Shown piece after piece: positions 635-35,366 of a DNA stretch of 35,366 bases (the stretch's first letter is position 1; each line of letters starts with the position of its first letter). The DNA lies in the IMG/VR virus record IMGVR_UViG_3300022939_000070, positions 1-35,366 of that record, one strand, 5' to 3'. The notes under the pieces were generated by a model. That model did not search any database, was not told the origin of the DNA, and worked only from the letters and a program-made list of their open reading frames with translations. Both the position numbers and the translations under genes were made by a program. This stretch comes from a virus.

Positions 635-785
635 ATCAATATTTAGCATGCTACAGCAGGATTTGCCTACAGGGGATCCTGATATAGACTTTGCAAGGGG
701 TGCGCAGAAGTACCCATCAACATACAAGGAAGCGTTCAAACAAATTAAACAAAAGATAAGAAATAGATGGCAACGAACTACATAA
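627..785 (+). CDS. Small hypothetical protein between tail genes
   Basis: This 52-residue ORF starts at an ATG that overlaps the end of the upstream tail gene by 8 bases and ends 19 bases inside the tape measure gene. It therefore fills the only gap in this part of the tail operon. The sequence begins MIKSIFSMLQQDLP and ends in a basic stretch (KQIKQKIRNRW). The tight fit suggests translational coupling. No family is recognised. By position it could be a small tail assembly factor, but that is inference only. Confidence 0.55.
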   Translation: MIKSIFSMLQQDLPTGDPDIDFARGAQKYPSTYKEAFKQIKQKIRNRWQRTT

Positions 786-3592
786 AGATTGAGGTAGATT
801 ATGGCAACTCTAAGGTTAAGATTGGCGACCTTAAGATGGGCTTTGATGAGCTTGGTGAAAAGGCCACTGCCACTAGGAACAGGATAAATAAGGCATATAA
901 GTCTACTGAGAACGCTATGAAGGGTAGCCTTAAGGCACTTACTAGGGAGCGTGAGGGTTGGATTAACCTACAGCAGTCTTTAAGTACCACTAATGCTGCC
1001 TACTCTAAGTATCAGGCTCAGATTGATAAGCTAGACGCTAAGATCGCTAAGATTACAGATACTAGACGCAAAGAAGAGAAGGCGCTTAAGAATTCTGCTA
1101 ATGGTCTTCGTGCGCAGATCGCTGCTATGCAGACTGAGATGGATAACAGAATCCTATCTAATAAGCAGTACCGTATAGCCAACGAACAGCTACAACAACT
1201 TAAGGATAGGCTAGATGCCCTTACTGATACTAGAAAAGAGCATGAGATAGTACAAGAAGGTTCTGTTGCGCATTATGAGCAGGAGATTCAAGTTCAGATG
1301 GAAAGGCTCAGAAACATGAACCTTGAGCAGCATGAGATTGAAGAAACTGAGCAGAAGATTGCAAGTCTTACGGCTAGAAAGGCTGAGGCTGCTGCCAAAT
1401 CTACCATGCTTAATAAAGCAATGGCAGGAACCTCCTCTTCAGCAGGTGCAGCAGGTTCTGCTGTAACGGAATTTGGTCGTACTATTGGTGATGCTCCTTT
1501 TGGACTTATGGGTATGGCTAACAACATCCAACAGCTATCTCAACAGTTTGTGGATCTTAGTAATAAGTCAGGTGGTACTAAGCAGGCGTTACAGTCTATG
1601 CTTCAAACAATGATCGGCCCAGCAGGGGTTGTAGTTGCCATCAATATTATCACCTCAGCGCTTGTGGCCTACAACATGAAGAAGGATAAGGCTAAGGAAA
1701 AGACTGAAGACTTTAACGAGCAATTATTAATAGAGAAGAATACCCTAGAGGCTTTAAATGACTTATACAGGAATGGCGAAGATCTAATTGAAAATAGGGT
1801 TAGGATAATGGGTGCGTTAGCTGCTGCTGATGATAAGTATGCTGAGGCCTTAGATAAGATAGGTATTAATGAGGAGCAAAGAAGATTGTTTACTGAGGAT
1901 TATCTTGATAAAAGAATGGCGCTTAATGAGGCAGAGGATAAGAGGAATAAGATCGCAGAGAAGTATAAAGATCAATTAAAGCAAGAGTTAATATCTGAGG
2001 AGGCGCTTAATAAGGAGAGAGAGGAGATAAACAAGATAGAGGATCCTGCTGTTTATGCTGGTAGGATGCAAGCATTAGGTCAAAAAATAAATAGAAACAA
2101 CGAGCTTAAGGAAATCTTAGGTGAGGTGTCTGATGCTACTATTGCTGCTGCTGATGCTCAAAACGAGCTAAATAAAATCCTTGAGGCTAGCGCCCTAGAT
2201 GACGCTAAGAAGGATCTTGCTGCCTATGTAGAAGAGCTTAGAATACTGCAAAACTTTAAGGAGGGCCCTGAAAGACTAGCAGAGGAACTTAGGGTGTTAA
2301 AAGAGGACTTAGCTAAGGAGGCTGTTAAGGCAGGAACTACAGAGACTGCTGCTTATCAAGAAATACTATTAAGTATACTAGAAAAAGAGAGAGAGCTTTA
2401 TGAGGCGCAAGAGGAGATTAAACAAGAGTCTCACGACAAAGAAAAAGATCGACTTGCTAGTTTAGCAGAGCTAAATCAAGAATATACAGATAACCTAGAG
2501 GCTCAGGGTGATGAGTTGGGTATCATAAGGCTTAACCAAGCAGAAAGGGATGCTATTGCAGAGGCTAAGGCTCTTGGGGCAAGCAAGGATCTTATTATGA
2601 AGATCGAGCAGGACTTTGCTAACCAACGTCAGGCTATACTTGATGAGGATGCAAATGAAAGAGCAGAGAAGGCTGAAAAAGCAGCTAAGAAGCAGGCTGA
2701 TAAGGAGAAGAAGATAAGGGAAGAGGCCTTAAAGGAAAACCTACAAACAATTGGCGAATACTTTGATAAAGAGGTTGAGCTTATGCAGGAAAGAACCAAC
2801 AGGATCAGTGAGATCTTGTCAGGCTTTAGTACTATTATGGATGAGCTAGGCAACATGTCTCAGCATAGGTTTGAGCGTCAGATAGGTAGGCTTAATGAGG
2901 AGAGAGATTTGATTAAGCAAAACGATGACTTAACTAAACAAGAGAAGGAACAACAGTTAACAGACCTGCAAAGAAAAGAGAACAATATTCAGAGAAATAG
3001 AATTAAGGCTGAGTACAATATGTTTGCTGTTAAGCAGATGTTCTCTATTATGGAGATGGCTATGAAAGAGAGGGCTATGTTCAGAGAGCGCATGCTTATG
3101 AAGCAGAAGTTTATTGAGGAAACTAGGCTTACTCAGTTGTCTATTATACAGGAGCAATTAAAGGCAGGTTTGATCTCAGGCGTTCAGGCACAAATTGCTA
3201 TTAATGGGGTAAACCTTAAAGCAGCAGAAAATATGGCTGGTGCTAATATGTCGCTTGGTTCTTTTATGGCGAACTTAGGCCCATTGGGTATTGCAGCGTT
3301 TGCTTTAAGTATTGGTGGTGTTATAGCGTCTATTGTTTCTGCTAAGAGAAAAGGTCAGGCAGAGATTGCATCACTTTCAGATGCGCCTGTTAATCTTGGT
3401 GGTAGTAGTGGTCAATCTGCTAGTAAGCCTGCTGTTCCTGACTTTAATGTGGTAGGTGCTAGTGGTCAAAACCAGTTAGCTGAGGCTATTGGAGCGTCTA
3501 ACAATGAGCCACTAAGGGCTTATGTGGTATCCTCTGACGTAACGTCTGCACAGGAGATGGATCGTAAGATTGTAGAGGGTGCATCAATTTAA
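767..3592 (+). CDS. Tail tape measure protein
   Basis: At 941 residues this is the second longest gene. It is dominated by long Lys/Glu/Ala-rich coiled-coil segments (roughly residues 40-225, 380-640 and 640-800). Hydrophobic stretches lie near residues 283-302 and 838-862, as is usual for tape measures, which set tail length and help DNA entry. The C-terminus turns Gly/Ser-rich. It sits after the distal tail genes, or between them and the head genes on the circle. By the usual rule of about 0.15 nm per residue the tail would be near 140 nm, which is an inference. The ATG at 767 overlaps the preceding small ORF. CpG is scarce in this gene (6 in 2221-2820 by hand count). Confidence 0.9.
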   Translation: MATNYIKIEVDYGNSKVKIGDLKMGFDELGEKATATRNRINKAYKSTENAMKGSLKALTREREGWINLQQSLSTTNAAYSKYQAQIDKLDAKIAKITDTRRKEEKALKNSANGLRAQIAAMQTEMDNRILSNKQYRIANEQLQQLKDRLDALTDTRKEHEIVQEGSVAHYEQEIQVQMERLRNMNLEQHEIEETEQKIASLTARKAEAAAKSTMLNKAMAGTSSSAGAAGSAVTEFGRTIGDAPFGLMGMANNIQQLSQQFVDLSNKSGGTKQALQSMLQTMIGPAGVVVAINIITSALVAYNMKKDKAKEKTEDFNEQLLIEKNTLEALNDLYRNGEDLIENRVRIMGALAAADDKYAEALDKIGINEEQRRLFTEDYLDKRMALNEAEDKRNKIAEKYKDQLKQELISEEALNKEREEINKIEDPAVYAGRMQALGQKINRNNELKEILGEVSDATIAAADAQNELNKILEASALDDAKKDLAAYVEELRILQNFKEGPERLAEELRVLKEDLAKEAVKAGTTETAAYQEILLSILEKERELYEAQEEIKQESHDKEKDRLASLAELNQEYTDNLEAQGDELGIIRLNQAERDAIAEAKALGASKDLIMKIEQDFANQRQAILDEDANERAEKAEKAAKKQADKEKKIREEALKENLQTIGEYFDKEVELMQERTNRISEILSGFSTIMDELGNMSQHRFERQIGRLNEERDLIKQNDDLTKQEKEQQLTDLQRKENNIQRNRIKAEYNMFAVKQMFSIMEMAMKERAMFRERMLMKQKFIEETRLTQLSIIQEQLKAGLISGVQAQIAINGVNLKAAENMAGANMSLGSFMANLGPLGIAAFALSIGGVIASIVSAKRKGQAEIASLSDAPVNLGGSSGQSASKPAVPDFNVVGASGQNQLAEAIGASNNEPLRAYVVSSDVTSAQEMDRKIVEGASI

Positions 3593-7061: not shown

Positions 7062-7097
7062 AAAAAAAGAGAGGCCCTGTAAGGCCTCTTTTTTTTG
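7062..7097 (+). terminator. Rho-independent terminator after tail-tube-like gene
   Basis: A perfect stem (AGAGGCC with GGCCTCT, extended by A-T pairs) encloses the loop CTGTAA and ends in a run of T. It starts about 15 bases after the stop codon. Confidence 0.9.
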
Positions 7098-23849: not shown

Positions 23850-24195
23850 CGATGGAAAAGAAATCGGAAACATCCAGTTACACTTCTACACAGCCACACT
23901 CTCAGCCTATCTCATATATAACGACCTTGAGGTATTCGATAGACTCCTCCAAGAATTTGAAGAAAAAGAGGAGTACCTCATCTGCTCAGGAATTAAGTCA
24001 GCAATAGAGAAGATAGAGGATGTGCATGATAGCAGGTTTCAGGATGCTGCTGTTGAGATTGGCATGAATGAGGATGAGGATGGTATGTTGACGTTTAGCT
24101 TTGAGAAGCATAAAGAAATAAGTAAGTTAATTTTTGAGGATATATTAAAGGAGATTTATGAAAAACAAATTGGACAGAGTAAGAGAGATAGTTGA
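23827..24195 (+). CDS. Hypothetical acidic protein
   Basis: The 122-residue product starts 23 bases inside the nuclease gene. It is acidic and helical (FDRLLQEFEEKEEYLICSG, IKSAIEKIEDVHDSR) with a short C-terminal Lys/Ser-rich end. No known motif is visible. The overlap with genes on both sides places it in the replication operon. Confidence 0.6.
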   Translation: MLLEELYNDGKEIGNIQLHFYTATLSAYLIYNDLEVFDRLLQEFEEKEEYLICSGIKSAIEKIEDVHDSRFQDAAVEIGMNEDEDGMLTFSFEKHKEISKLIFEDILKEIYEKQIGQSKRDS

Positions 24196-24754
24196 GAAGG
24201 AAGTAGGAATTAATCTATCAGCTAAGAACAACAACAATGACTATGTAAATGCTAGATGTATTTACTTTCAGATATCTAAAGACTTGGCTGACTATGGTTG
24301 GATTTATAGCTTAGAGAAGATCGGTCAGACTATCGGTAAGCACCATTCTACGGTAATACATTCTACTAAGTACAGGTTCCCAAAGATCATGCAGCGTAAT
24401 GAGTACAGGATCCTTTACTACAAATTAAAGAAGCAGATCGTGGAGGAGGTTACCGACTGTGTTATTGATGGTACAGAGTCTGAGGTAGAGATGTTTGAAA
24501 CTAACAGGCTACTAAAGCTAGAGATCTTAAAGGTCAAGGAGGTTCATGAGAATGAGATGGATATGCTGAAGAAGACACAGAATCTTTTGATTGATAAGTA
24601 TAGAAGAGAGTTGTCTATTCTAAGAAAGTCAACCACCTTTGTTGATGATAGGTTTGCTAAGATGACCTATGGTCTAGATGATGATCAGATGGAGCAGGTA
24701 TACCAAAAGCTAGAGCTATTGTGTAAGATGATGCCTAAGACTCAGTATGTCTAA
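24158..24754 (+). CDS. DnaA domain IV-like DNA-binding protein with coiled coil
   Basis: The 198-residue product carries, in residues 1-80, the pattern of the DnaA C-terminal DNA-binding domain. It has VREIVEKEVGINLSAK, then ARCIYFQISKDL, SLEKIGQTIGKHHSTVIHST, where the HSTVIH signature reads the DnaA box in bacterial DnaA. No ATPase domain is present. Residues 90-198 form a coiled coil and a helical tail. It may bind an origin in phage or host DNA, either to recruit the replication machinery or to block host DnaA. No exact TTATCCACA box was found by eye. Confidence 0.78.
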   Translation: MKNKLDRVREIVEKEVGINLSAKNNNNDYVNARCIYFQISKDLADYGWIYSLEKIGQTIGKHHSTVIHSTKYRFPKIMQRNEYRILYYKLKKQIVEEVTDCVIDGTESEVEMFETNRLLKLEILKVKEVHENEMDMLKKTQNLLIDKYRRELSILRKSTTFVDDRFAKMTYGLDDDQMEQVYQKLELLCKMMPKTQYV

Positions 24755-25040: not shown

Positions 25041-25443
25041 CGAGATAAAGGACAACGATGGTAGAAAGCACAACAAGCGACTACCTCCAAAGGTTCAGCT
25101 AAATGGGCCTGTTACTAGTAAACCTGCTAGGGTAAACAACGCTAAGAAGGCAGCAGTAACTAAGTACTCTATTAACGCAATGAAGGATGTCTTTGGCTCA
25201 GAGCAGGAGGCAATGAAGTCATTGGCTAAGTTTGCGAAGGAGGGTAGCTTAGGTCACATGAAGTTGTTGTTAGAGTATGGCTTTGGTAAGCCTGAGGATG
25301 TAGAGAGATCTACAGGTGGCACTAAGATCACAGCGCCAGTGATTAACTTCTACGGTAATAACACAGCAGAACCTGATGAGCCTATGGAGATTGAGGCAGA
25401 GGATATAGACTTCGAAGAGGAGGAAGAGGATGAGCAAGGTTAA
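25018..25443 (+). CDS. Terminase small subunit (probable)
   Basis: The 141-residue product begins with a basic tail (ARRKKSNEIK, KHNKRLPPK) and a helical segment with SEQEAMKSLAKFAKEGSLGH, MKLLLEYGFGKPEDV. It ends very acidic (EAEDIDFEEEEEDEQG). The GxGKP-type end of the helical part and the 14-base overlap with the large terminase gene are typical of small terminases, which recognise packaging sites and form a ring. Confidence 0.75.
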   Translation: MARRKKSNEIKDNDGRKHNKRLPPKVQLNGPVTSKPARVNNAKKAAVTKYSINAMKDVFGSEQEAMKSLAKFAKEGSLGHMKLLLEYGFGKPEDVERSTGGTKITAPVINFYGNNTAEPDEPMEIEAEDIDFEEEEEDEQG

Positions 25444-26641
25444 CATACACGACAAGTACATACCACTATTCACCTCACCCTCAAGGTATTACGTTGTCAC
25501 TGGAGGTAGGGGTTCAGGGAAGTCATTCTCTGTGGCTATCTTTTTACTTAACCTAATATGCGAGAGAGGACACAAAGTCCTCTTTACTCGTTATACAATG
25601 GTGTCAGCACAGACATCTATTATCCCTGAGTTTATTGAGAAGATAGACCTGATGGGATTAGCTCACCTGTTCAGGATCACAAAGGATGAGATCATTAACC
25701 TAGAGACTAAGAGTTCTATTATCTTTAAGGGGATCAGGACATCCTCAGGTAATCAGACAGCAGCACTAAAGTCTTTAGCAAAGGTAACCACCTTTGTACT
25801 GGATGAGGCAGAGGAGCTTGTGGATGAGGAGACCTTTGATAAGATAGACTTCTCTGTTAGAACACAGACAGAACAGAATAGGTGTATACTTATCTTAAAC
25901 CCTACTACTAAGGAGCATTGGATCTATAAGAGATGGTTTCAGAATCAGGGGGTTCCTGAAGGATGGAATGGTATAGATGGTAACTGCACCTATATCCACA
26001 CCACATACATGGATAACAAGGATAACCTTTCAGAATCTTTCTTGGAGCAGATCGGCAAGATGAAGAAGTTTAGGCCTGACAAATACATGCACCAAATTCT
26101 AGGGGGATGGCTCTCTTCAGCAGAGGGGACTATCTACAAGAACTGGAAGGTAGGAGATTATCAGCAGACAGAGCTAACAGTCTTTGGGCAGGATTTTGGT
26201 TTCTCCACAGACCCCACAACATTGGTGCATGTATCAGTAGACAATGAAGATAAGAAGATGTGGGTAAGGGAATGCTATGCTCAAACCAACATGACCACCA
26301 CTCAGATAGCTCAGAAGAACAGACAGTTCTGTGGCCTAGACCTAGTGATCTGTGATAGTAGTGAGCCTCGTCTTATTACAGAGTTAAAGAATATGGATCT
26401 TAATATTAGGGGGGCTATCAAGAAGAAGGGTAGTATCTTATCAGGTATTGCCTTGATGCAAGACTTTGAGATCATTGTAGACAAGGGTTCTACTACGATC
26501 ATCAAGGAACTTAATAACTACATTTGGAAGACCAAGAACGCAACGCCAATTGATTCCTACAATCACACATTAGATGCCATGCGTTACGCACTGGAATATT
26601 TAATAAGGGGGAAGAGTTTAGGTAGGTACGTTATCAGATAA
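25430..26641 (+). CDS. terL: Terminase large subunit (PBSX type)
   Basis: The 403-residue protein has Walker A GGRGSGKS at 25-32, Walker B TFVLDEAEE at 121-129, and the coupling segment ILILNPTT at 153-160. The RNase H-like nuclease domain starts with FGQDFGFSTDP (Asp255), continues with VICDSSEP (Asp309), and ends with YNHTLDAMRYALEY (Asp382). This is the complete terminase ATPase plus nuclease layout. It cuts and pumps the genome through the portal. CpG is almost absent (4 in 25441-26040), showing the backbone base bias. Confidence 0.93.
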   Translation: MSKVNIHDKYIPLFTSPSRYYVVTGGRGSGKSFSVAIFLLNLICERGHKVLFTRYTMVSAQTSIIPEFIEKIDLMGLAHLFRITKDEIINLETKSSIIFKGIRTSSGNQTAALKSLAKVTTFVLDEAEELVDEETFDKIDFSVRTQTEQNRCILILNPTTKEHWIYKRWFQNQGVPEGWNGIDGNCTYIHTTYMDNKDNLSESFLEQIGKMKKFRPDKYMHQILGGWLSSAEGTIYKNWKVGDYQQTELTVFGQDFGFSTDPTTLVHVSVDNEDKKMWVRECYAQTNMTTTQIAQKNRQFCGLDLVICDSSEPRLITELKNMDLNIRGAIKKKGSILSGIALMQDFEIIVDKGSTTIIKELNNYIWKTKNATPIDSYNHTLDAMRYALEYLIRGKSLGRYVIR

Positions 26642-31020: not shown

Positions 31021-31743
31021 ATGATGGAAGATAAATTCGTACTTAATGTTCCCTCTAACATAGAGGATATTAGATTAGAGCAGTATCAGAAGTTCTTGAA
31101 GGTGTCTAAGGATATTGACAAGGAAGACGAGGAGGCTAACAAGTTTCTACAGATTAAACTACTTGAAATATTCTGTGACGTTACCTATGAGCAGATCAGG
31201 AGGATGCCTGCTGCGCTGTATGAGTTTGCTGTTACTAAGATTATGGAGGTGCTTAATGAGTCTACCCCACTAGTAAAGAAATTTAGTATGGTAGGTAGTG
31301 ATGGTGTGGAGATAGAGTTTGGTATGATACCCAACCTAGACAACATGACCTCAGGGGAGTATATAGATCTAGACAGCTTGGTTACTGACTGGGACAATAT
31401 GCACAAGGCTATGGCCGTGCTATATAGACCAATAATTAAGAGAAGGAAGGATTTATATGATATTGAGCCTTATTCCACCTATGAGAAGTACGAGGAGCTT
31501 ATGAAGCATGCTCCACTTAATGTGTCACTAGGGGCGCTGCTTTTTTTTTATCGTTTAGGGATAAAATTGTCGAAACATATCCTGAACTCTTCGGTGGAAC
31601 GATTGACACAGGAAGAGCGTACGCTAGTAGAGAAGAATCTTTTGGAAAAAAGTGGGGTTGGTATCAATCAATATATGCAATCGCTGGAGGAGATCTCCTT
31701 AAGTTTGATGAGGTCACCACAACAGGAATCCATAAATGTTTAA
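31021..31743 (+). CDS. Tail assembly chaperone, frame-0 product
   Basis: The 240-residue product from the ATG at 31021 (or 31024) has IRLEQYQKFLKVSKDIDKED, then GMIPNLDNMTSGEYIDLDSL, HKAMAVLYRPIIKRR and GALLFFYRLGIKLSKHIL. I recognise this pattern from tail-region proteins of Bacteroidetes phages. The position at the head of the tail operon and the T9 tract at 31541-31549 fit a lambda G/GT-type chaperone, which coats the tape measure. An in-frame GTG at 30946 would add 25 residues of poor quality. The preferred start follows GTTATC. Confidence 0.72.
   Translation: MMEDKFVLNVPSNIEDIRLEQYQKFLKVSKDIDKEDEEANKFLQIKLLEIFCDVTYEQIRRMPAALYEFAVTKIMEVLNESTPLVKKFSMVGSDGVEIEFGMIPNLDNMTSGEYIDLDSLVTDWDNMHKAMAVLYRPIIKRRKDLYDIEPYSTYEKYEELMKHAPLNVSLGALLFFYRLGIKLSKHILNSSVERLTQEERTLVEKNLLEKSGVGINQYMQSLEEISLSLMRSPQQESINV
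31542..31583 (+). promoter_or_regulatory. Probable -1 ribosomal frameshift signal
   Basis: Frame 0 reads CTT TTT TTT TAT. The heptamer T TTT TTT (31542-31548) allows both Phe tRNAs to re-pair one base back. Eight bases after it, AGGGATA (31557-31563) can pair with TATCCT (31578-31583) with one bulged G, a possible stimulatory hairpin at usual spacing. After the slip, TTA at 31548 starts an 88-codon open extension. Confidence 0.75.
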
Positions 31744-31814
31744 TGTGGTTAGCGTTTGAGAAAGATAAGAACGAACTAGAAGCAAAGAGAATAAAAGAAG
31801 CATATAGAAAATGA
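31548..31814 (+). CDS. Tail assembly chaperone, -1 frame extension (GT-like)
   Basis: The -1 frame is open from 31521 to the TGA at 31812 and has no ATG before 31744, so expression should need a frameshift at 31542-31548. The extension (88 residues, giving a 264-residue fusion) contains KIVETYPELFGGTIDTGRAY, then FGKKWGWYQSIYAIAGGDLL and HKCLMWLAFEKDKNELEAK. The WGWY...LAxGD..K.DE pattern is one I know as a separate small tail protein in Bacteroidetes phages. It shares 192 coding bases with the frame-0 tail, so the segment is read in two frames. The TGA overlaps the next ATG. An undercount of the T tract (T10 instead of T9) would give the same fusion. Confidence 0.72.
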   Translation, partial: LSFRDKIVETYPELFGGTIDTGRAYASREESFGKKWGWYQSIYAIAGGDLLKFDEVTTTGIHKCLMWLAFEKDKNELEAKRIKEAYRK

Positions 31815-32808: not shown

Positions 32809-33822
32809 ATGGCAACTAACATAAAAGCAAACGTAAGGAGTCCTAGATACTATGAGATGTCAGGCTCAGGATCTAAGACATTAAACCTAAAGATATGGAC
32901 AGGGGATATTATATCCACCCCAAGTACCAACACCTATACACTAACTAAAGACGCTGTTGATGGGCAGGCAGTATTTGAGATAAGCGAGCTAGTTAGGGAT
33001 TATATAGATCAGACGTTTCCAATAGTAGGGACTTCGTATCCTTGTGCTGCTGCTTGGGTTAAGATTAACTCTGACGCAGCTATTCCTGCGTTTGATGGTT
33101 ATGGATATTATAATGAAGGGGCTAACCCATCCTTAAGCACTAGAGCCCTAATTAGCAATACTACCATATGGGTTCCGCCATCAGAGAAGGTTAGAATACC
33201 TGTATATACCAGTGCGTCTACCAATGCGGTTAGTTCGGTAAAGTATTACAGTGGAGGTTCTTTGTTGGAATCAGATACTATTTCATCTAGCGGACAAAGT
33301 AGCGCACAGATTGCTTATCCTTTTACATCAGAAACAGTAGATGAGGTTAGGGTTTATTATTCTACTGACTCAGCATACGATTCTTTTGATGTTAAGTATA
33401 TGGACTGTTCTATGTACGACACTTATAAGATAACATTTGTTAATAAGTTTGGTGCGTTACAAGACTTGTATTTTATGGGTAAGTCTACAGAGTCAATGTC
33501 TGTTAGTAAGGATAACTATAAGGCCAACATACTTGATCATACGAATCAAAGCTACAGCATCTCAGAACACCAATACAAGGACTTCGATGTACAGGGTAGA
33601 CAATCTATGAATTTAACTACTGGTTATGTTTCTGAGGATATTAACGAACCAATTAAGCAGCTCATATTATCAGAGAGGGTTTGGATGACTGTAGGTAGTG
33701 ATGTTACACCAGTTACGGTAAACAGCAAGAGCCTAGTAATTAGAACCTCTGTCAATGATAAGATGGTCAGTTATACACTAGACTTTGAGTTTGCTCACGA
33801 TATTATACAGAATGTACGCTAA
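32809..33822 (+). CDS. Tail structural protein, beta-rich
   Basis: The 337-residue product has YYEMSGSGSKTLNLKIWTGD, then AVFEISELVRDYIDQTFP, and a C-terminal part with YDTYKITFVNKFGALQDLYF, SISEHQYKDFDVQGRQSMNL and SEDINEPIKQLILSERVWM. It looks like several beta domains. I know similar proteins just before the large distal-tail protein in Bacteroidetes phages. It is probably a distal tail or baseplate component. TAA and the next ATG overlap by one base. Confidence 0.7.
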   Translation: MATNIKANVRSPRYYEMSGSGSKTLNLKIWTGDIISTPSTNTYTLTKDAVDGQAVFEISELVRDYIDQTFPIVGTSYPCAAAWVKINSDAAIPAFDGYGYYNEGANPSLSTRALISNTTIWVPPSEKVRIPVYTSASTNAVSSVKYYSGGSLLESDTISSSGQSSAQIAYPFTSETVDEVRVYYSTDSAYDSFDVKYMDCSMYDTYKITFVNKFGALQDLYFMGKSTESMSVSKDNYKANILDHTNQSYSISEHQYKDFDVQGRQSMNLTTGYVSEDINEPIKQLILSERVWMTVGSDVTPVTVNSKSLVIRTSVNDKMVSYTLDFEFAHDIIQNVR

Positions 33823-35366
33823 TGCAGGCAATACAGCTATACATAGAGAATGAGCGTCTTGAGATGTTCAAGGACGAGAGTGTAGAGGTAACCCAAAGCA
33901 TAAAGAATGTTAGGGATATCTCTAAGGTGTTTACTACCTTTAGTAAGCAATTTTCTGTCCCTGCGTCTAAGACTAATAACAGAATATTTCAGCACTACTA
34001 CAATTTTGACATCGACAATGGGTTTGATGCTAGGACTAGGAAGGATGCTATTATAGAACTCAACTACCTACCCTTTCAGAAGGGTAAGATGCGCCTAGAT
34101 GGTGTGGACATGAGAAGTAACAAGCCTTATGCTTATAAGGTTACTTTCTTTGGTAGTGTGATTGAACTAAAGGACATTTTAGGCGAGGATAAGTTACCTT
34201 CGCTAACAGCACTAGATATAGACTTTGAATATAGCTCAACCAAGATACTAAGCAACCTACAAACACTAAATGCTGTAGATGCGCAGGGTAGCACACAGGT
34301 AGGGATCTCCTTACCACTAATTACCCATAGTCAAAGGCTATACTATGATTCAGGGGTAGAGTCTGAGCAGTCAGGTAACCTATATTGGGGAACTAAGGTA
34401 CAAGGGGTAAAGCACAGACAGTTAAAGTACGCTGTTAGGCTAGACAAGATTATAGACGCTATTGAGTCTAAGTACTCTGCGATCAACTTTGATACTAGTA
34501 GCTTTTTCCATGATGCCACTAAAGATATTCATAAGATCTATATGTGGTGTCACAGAAAGACAGGTCAGGTAACCATTGAGGCAGGTAATGAGCAAAAAGT
34601 GACTTTTACACAGACTAATTTTCAGACATACTTTAATATAGACGTAGATGGTGATGCAGTTCCTGTTAGCAATGCAGGGGCTAATGACACATTGGTGTTC
34701 TTGGGTAATGTAACCTCTACTTCTAGGGGCGAGTATGACTTGATCATCAAGAAGAATGGTACTATTGTTCAGGTATATGAGAAGGTTACAGGAACTATTG
34801 CCCCTACGTTTAGCACAGGCGCTTTTTCAGCAGGCGATCAGTATTCTGCATATATCAGAACCTATGACGAGCCAATTGTCTTTACGTCACTTACTTGGCA
34901 GTACAAACAAGGAACAAGCACTGTAGAAACAGAAACAGCCACAGACAATACCTATGAGTCGAGCTTCAAGTTTAATATAGCAGAGAACCTGCCTGAGATG
35001 AAGATCATAGACTTCTTATCTAGCTTATTTAAGATGTTTAACCTAGTGGCCTATGTTCAGGATGACGACACTATCCAAGTAGAACCACTAGACACCTACT
35101 ATGCTAGATCTAGGGATCAGGAGATCACTAAGTATATAGATATTACCAAGTCACAGGTAAACACAGCAATACCATTTAAAGAGATCTTCTTTAAGTATGC
35201 TGATACAAAAACCATACTGGCTAATCAACACCTACAGGAGCTATCTGACGTAGAATGGGGTGGTGTAGAGTACCAACACTCAGCGCAACTAGATGGCGAG
35301 ATCTATAAGGTGGAGCCTGCGTTTGCTCATGCTAAGTTCGAGAAACTATTTGACAACTCTAACCTA
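33822..35366 (+). CDS. Distal tail / baseplate-like protein, N-terminal part
   Basis: The gene starts at the ATG at 33822 (QAIQLYIENERLEMFKDESV) and is open for 515 codons to the end of the window. It continues at base 155 of the left end for 159 more codons and a stop, about 674 residues in total. Early motifs are TKV-type FTTFSKQFSVPASKTNNRIF and DAIIELNYLPFQKGKMRLDG, then KPYAYKVTFFGSVIELKDIL. I recognise the FSKQFSVPAS pattern from large tail proteins of Bacteroidetes phages. The gene order (tape measure downstream) fits a baseplate or tail-hub role. Confidence 0.8.
   Translation, partial: MQAIQLYIENERLEMFKDESVEVTQSIKNVRDISKVFTTFSKQFSVPASKTNNRIFQHYYNFDIDNGFDARTRKDAIIELNYLPFQKGKMRLDGVDMRSNKPYAYKVTFFGSVIELKDILGEDKLPSLTALDIDFEYSSTKILSNLQTLNAVDAQGSTQVGISLPLITHSQRLYYDSGVESEQSGNLYWGTKVQGVKHRQLKYAVRLDKIIDAIESKYSAINFDTSSFFHDATKDIHKIYMWCHRKTGQVTIEAGNEQKVTFTQTNFQTYFNIDVDGDAVPVSNAGANDTLVFLGNVTSTSRGEYDLIIKKNGTIVQVYEKVTGTIAPTFSTGAFSAGDQYSAYIRTYDEPIVFTSLTWQYKQGTSTVETETATDNTYESSFKFNIAENLPEMKIIDFLSSLFKMFNLVAYVQDDDTIQVEPLDTYYARSRDQEITKYIDITKSQVNTAIPFKEIFFKYADTKTILANQHLQELSDVEWGGVEYQHSAQLDGEIYKVEPAFAHAKFEKLFDNSNL
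35213..35366. repeat. Right copy of terminal overlap
   Basis: It matches bases 1-154 with mismatches at 35339, 35344 and 35345. All three lie in the last 28 bases, inside the tail gene, and change only Arg to Lys. It is most simply a circular assembly overlap from a mixed population. Confidence 0.95.

Follow-up and report, generated by a model that had tools for sequence, protein, structure and literature searches.

Frameshifting in tail-chaperone genes is a textbook ribosomal case, in which two products are obtained from one gene. The locus considered here raises the question of whether a long run of Ts in a phage gene serves such a switch, by which machinery the switch would be made, and whether both of the alternative C-termini are genuine protein sequences. 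The window, i.e., the whole stretch of DNA analysed, is the entire IMG/VR record IMGVR_UViG_3300022939_000070 (35,366 bases), and the host of this phage is probably an aquatic member of the Bacteroidetes. An initial sequence-only reading had proposed a programmed -1 frameshift with a long dual-coded segment in a tail-chaperone gene. The account that we consider probable is that of one gene with two isoforms and a programmed switch at nine Ts, brought about by transcriptional slippage from U9 to U10.

Architecture and Genomic Setting of the Gene

The features of the gene are compiled in Table 1.

Table 1. Coordinates of the predicted two-product gene and its parts in the window.
Feature	Position	Strand	Remarks
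Frame-0 product	31021..31743	+	240 aa; ATG 31021, stop TAA 31741-31743
N-terminal domain	residues 1 to about 170 of frame-0 product		runs on into long helix
T9 tract (candidate slip site)	31541..31549	+	frame-0 reading CTT TTT TTT TAT
In-phase T_TTT_TTT heptamer	31542-31548	+	inside T9
Dual-coded segment	31549..31743	+	64 frame-0 codons (31549-31740, 192 nt) + stop, also read in -1
-1 frame C-terminal domain	31548..31814	+	88 aa + stop; core FGKKWGWYQSIYA; needs frame switch

The open stretch of the -1 frame spans 31521 to the TGA at 31812-31814, and its single ATG, GTG or TTG codon, the ATG at 31743, lies past the conserved core. The elements on which the sequence-only reading was built, namely the T9 tract with an in-frame T TTT TTT and a start-less -1 frame of 88 codons, were confirmed and recur in 361 distinct relatives; likewise, the 64 codons (192 bases) of frame 0 past the slip and the 264-residue fusion have the coordinates that it had given. 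As predicted from the sequence, 176 residues are common to the 240-aa and the 264-aa form, and the identical 264-aa protein results whether a single U is added or the ribosome slips once by -1.

The frame-0 product matches phrog_32199, a family of unknown function, and its structure model has a mean pLDDT of 88.8. Its tail is modelled as the extension of one long helix (residues 166-230), along which the confidence drops from >90 to <60. The model of the -1 domain is helical (pLDDT 84.6).

The gene starts at 31021 and opens the tail module; the terminase gene (25430-26641) and several small genes precede it. Four ORFs (154, 176, 337 and about 725 aa) come next, and after them a 941-aa ORF (767-3592), which is, judging from its size and place in the gene order, the best tape-measure candidate. 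The tail-tube candidate occupies 32809-33822. Genes for protease-like, capsid-like and portal proteins are located further along, past the tape-measure candidate. The ORFs at 33822-35366 and 2-634 match consecutive stretches of phrog_38559. Both record ends thus lie inside one phrog_38559 gene, which means either a circularly permuted genome or one that was cut open at some arbitrary position. The first half of a 198-aa ORF at 24158-24754 resembles, by eye only, the C-terminal (origin-binding) domain of DnaA (IGQTIGKHHSTVIHS).

Relatives and Conservation of the Site

Relatives were collected in IMG/VR scans with the -1 domain and with divergent alignments, yielding hundreds of sequences, among which 361 distinct loci were counted. 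They include two isolates, the Nonlabens phages P12024L and P12024S, while a scan of genome contigs returned one locus, in a Bacteroidetes MAG. The tract comprises nine Ts in 318 of the distinct loci, ten in 39 and eight in 4, and is never shorter. In none of the 361 IMG/VR loci do the N-terminal and the -1 domain lie in one DNA frame, and all T10 loci keep the -1 relation. The heptamer T_TTT_TTT is in phase in every locus of the subset that was read codon by codon (264/264). The third frame stops at a median of 2 codons 3' of the tract in the relatives (31550-31560 in the window), a feature that the FR/LG codons, rather than selection, may account for.

Two observations had been named in the sequence-only reading as speaking against it. 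A T10 tract within a single continuous frame was looked for in the relatives and found in none of them. Regarding the breakage of either frame past the tract, frame 0 is shortened, not absent, in a subset, and the -1 frame stops early in one sequence (L021).

Sequence searches of Pfam, NCBIfam and the PDB yielded no meaningful family, and in PHROGs strong matches were obtained to unnamed families only. A search of freely accessible literature retrieved no paper that deals with this gene family or describes a tail chaperone with polymerase slippage. Among the structure matches in BFVD, several viral proteins of 226-267 aa (A0A516L611, A0A516L5A8, A0A6J5N0W0 and others) fit the models of both the N- and the C-terminal domain. 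These model-based matches suggest that distant relatives carry both domains in one continuous protein and speak for the fusion being a genuine product.

A fold neighbour of the N-terminal domain was encountered in Flavobacterium phage 6H (L387, 10352-10927, minus strand; probably gp10, by length). It ends with TGT TTT TTC TAT, and coding-like sequence extends beyond it, in other frames, in the direction of the tape-measure gene; this is possibly another frame-switched chaperone, or else the locus contains sequencing errors.

Dual Coding and Selection on the Frame-0 Tail

Upon synonymous reshuffling of the -1 frame of the window, frame 0 stays open this far in 1% of the trials. When the -1 codons are exchanged for synonymous ones, the median open length of frame 0 is about 5 codons for most representatives, versus about 62 observed, with the summed probability of this test being only indicative because the loci are related. 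Across alignment columns 2-58, a single frame-0 stop was observed versus about 100 expected; past the frame-0 end (70 versus 62.5 expected) and in an upstream control region of the same gene (833 versus 829 expected), the stops match the expectation. For the residue similarity in frame 0, the excess over the null that considers only the -1 frame reaches 1.37 BLOSUM units (z 17), whereas it stays at or below 0.18 units (z 3.6 or lower) in the control region. Change at third positions of the -1 frame amounts to 0.168 inside the overlap and to 0.220 after it, versus 0.317 for third positions of the N-terminal domain.

The consensus of the frame-0 tail is (V/L)FFYxLGxELxxxxLNYLE...EKNGDGINQ...SL. 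In a Nonlabens-like group and some other relatives, this tail has just 15-25 codons; hence, its first part is universal, while the longer part characterises the main group. On the strength of these comparative tests, we regard the frame-0 tail as a selected protein sequence in its own right and about 190 bases as dual-coded in most of the family, with predicted isoforms of 240 and 264 aa.

Dual coding, as claimed at the outset, is borne out by the 361 relatives and by the direct selection tests on frame 0. The frequency of CpG, which had been put forward as a sign of the double constraint, turned out to be uninformative: the overlap in the window contains 7 CpG in 194 nt (o/e 0.96; the genome-wide value is 0.54), but 12% of windows of this size are equally rich, and in the relatives the overlap (0.73) hardly differs from the upstream sequence (0.71).

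Evidence at the T Run

At least nine Ts are present in 357 of the 361 loci, and the two ends of the run compensate each other. Where the left T is lost (preceding codon GGT, AGT, TAT, GAT or GCT), the next codon starts with TT in 12/12 loci; where it is present, this holds for 18/252 loci only. When the left boundary slides, at least nine Ts are restored in this manner. On the tree, five supported independent changes were identified, nearly all concordant and none discordant, corresponding to a sign-test p of 0.06, with 5 events being too few to reach 0.05. TTC was never found at the second Phe codon, though it is synonymous in both frames and makes up 25% of the Phe codons upstream. Taken together, these sequence patterns indicate that the T tract is under strong selection at the nucleotide level.

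Outside this site, long T runs are depleted in some 0.9 Mb of related coding sequence (3 against 22 for T8, 1 against 10 for T9 and longer), and the avoidance of T7-T8 runs extends to each of the three codon phases. Avoidance regardless of phase fits the polymerase rather than the ribosome, and replication slippage could contribute to the avoidance of long homopolymers too. In the whole window, the T9 at 31541 is the sole A/T run of at least 8 inside a listed gene. Other such runs are found at 7089, 17309, 29442 and 30564, all between listed genes.

The tendency of polymerases to slip on such runs is documented. The RNA polymerase of E. coli slips preferentially on poly(T), for which about 7 Ts are required (PMC6260861), and single-base insertions dominate on A/T runs, rising exponentially with length (PMC5574713). 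In E. coli genes, UUUUUUU is avoided in all frames (PMC4066793). Thermus dnaX uses a T9 run (PMC5009743).

A possible hairpin eight bases downstream of the tract had been noted, an observation that did not withstand comparison with shuffled sequences. RNA folding at the site in the window is no better than in the shuffles (z -0.41), the mean z among 73 representatives of the family is about 0 on either side of the tract, and alignment folding revealed no pairs.

Given the conserved run of at least nine Ts with its sliding ends, the avoidance of T runs, the published measurements and the missing RNA structure, we favour transcriptional slippage over purely ribosomal frameshifting. Both are inferred from sequence, and the former is considered about twice as likely. 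Regarding the initial proposal of a programmed -1 frameshift, the switch to the -1 frame is thus upheld, whereas its ribosomal mechanism has become questionable, since at least nine Ts are kept rather than just the heptamer.

Alternative Explanations

The purely ribosomal account, i.e., -1 frameshifting on U_UUU_UUU with the extra Ts being incidental to Val/Leu-Phe-Phe-Tyr codons, is the one alternative of weight, and we regard it as possible, albeit on the unlikely side. The in-phase heptamer at every locus read codon by codon speaks for it, and stimulatory RNA structures are common in ribosomal frameshifting but not obligatory. Moreover, any T9 includes the in-phase heptamer, which weakens a polymerase-only reading, as do the four loci with T8 only and the ribosomal mode of the tail chaperones studied so far (PMC5009743). 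However, the heptamer alone would tolerate T7, T8 and T_TTT_TTC, in contrast to the length that is actually kept, and the compensating run ends, the lack of phase in the avoidance of T runs and the missing stimulatory structure likewise speak against this account.

Phase variation at the DNA level, with T9 and T10 genomes mixed in the phage population, would draw on the replication slippage that is likely on long homopolymers. It is very improbable considering that no relative has the domains in one frame, that the -1 relation persists at T10, and that an assembly isoform pair would be required together within one infection. A comparably slight chance is given to two separate genes, with the -1 domain having an independent start or being translationally coupled. 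In P12024L, the frame-0 stop indeed shares bases with a -1-frame ATG (TAATG; L001 4079, record position 24473) and the parts are annotated as separate genes, but the T tract is kept even where such an ATG exists, P12024L included, the sole -1 start in the window comes too late for the conserved core, and the viral proteins matching both domain models suggest one protein. Finally, the frame-0 tail might be a mere passenger that is open by accident, with only the -1 domain being of relevance. The short tails in the Nonlabens-like group and some others would be compatible with this, as would second positions of frame 0 that are more variable in the overlap (0.168) than in the N-terminal domain (0.072); yet, the purging of frame-0 stops and a residue conservation well above the -1 null, with a clean control, make it scarcely credible.

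Proposed Mechanism

According to the preferred reading, transcriptional slippage, the majority of mRNAs would carry U9 and give the 240-aa form, with the N-terminal domain running into the long helix. RNA polymerase would slip on the long T run, mostly by adding one U, and the resulting minority of U10 mRNAs would yield the 264-aa form by ordinary translation. By frame arithmetic, U8 and U11 transcripts would reach a stop two codons 3' of the tract. In addition, some of the long form may arise from ribosomes slipping by -1 on the embedded U_UUU_UUU. By analogy with the lambda pair gpG/gpGT, the N-terminal domain would bind the tape-measure protein and the -1 domain would recruit the tail-tube protein. 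In a wider sense, it is an evenly balanced proposition that a widespread group of aquatic phages, whose hosts are probably Bacteroidetes, relies on slippage of RNA polymerase at T9-T10, in place of ribosomal frameshifting, to set the isoform ratio of the tail chaperone, with two different functional C-termini over roughly 190 bases.

Function and Implications

A role as tail chaperone is likely in view of the tail module, the two-product logic and a weak fold match to the HK97 chaperone. The fold search with the N-terminal domain retrieved PDB 2ob9 (HK97 tail assembly chaperone) with 8% identity over 66 residues and a Z of 3.9, which is the level of unrelated helical proteins; in BFVD, it yielded a weak match to a protein named tail assembly chaperone (E 0.07). 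Of the earlier assignment as a tail chaperone located before the tape measure, the chaperone role is, thus, plausible, whereas direct adjacency does not apply. The gene should not be filed as a proven G/GT member, since it is not adjacent to the tape measure and the fold match is weak.

As the conserved signal resembles a polymerase slip site, a different machine may yield the same two-product ratio that is known from ribosomal frameshifting. The segment constitutes an unusually clean case of natural dual coding, and the divergent sequences available for studying how one piece of DNA maintains two proteins number in the hundreds. Current annotations either truncate the gene or list it as two unknown proteins; the T9 tract together with the FGKKWGWY signature would allow its annotation as one two-product gene.

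Comparison with Known Systems

The closest members with a named phage are gp40-gp41 of Nonlabens phage P12024L and gp38-gp39 of P12024S (Inhavirus), which belong to the same family (phrog_32199 and phrog_38404), have a T9 site and share the position in the tail module downstream of the terminase gene. They differ in being annotated as two hypothetical proteins and in a frame-0 tail of about 24 codons.

Thermus thermophilus dnaX also has a T9 run, at which one inserted base would lead to the -1 frame and to two C-terminal variants. In contrast to the phage gene, it is a cellular DNA polymerase gene for which slippage is demonstrated experimentally, and the passage on it in PMC5009743 describes no long conserved alternative tail.

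With lambda G/GT, which has counterparts in many long-tailed phages, the predicted products share the layout of a common N-terminal part and a -1 C-terminal extension encoded in the tail module, and no stimulatory structure is evident here; sequence similarity between the two was not detected. In lambda, the extended form is the minority product (PMC5009743). The systems differ in that the present gene has as its slip site 9-10 consecutive Ts whose number is under selection, and that four genes lie between the chaperone candidate and the tape-measure candidate. Furthermore, the standard-frame form continues here for about 60 conserved codons, while the lambda-type form ends near the site. By analogy, the gene may represent a G/GT-type variant in which, unlike in lambda, the standard-frame form owns a 64-residue tail in the same DNA.
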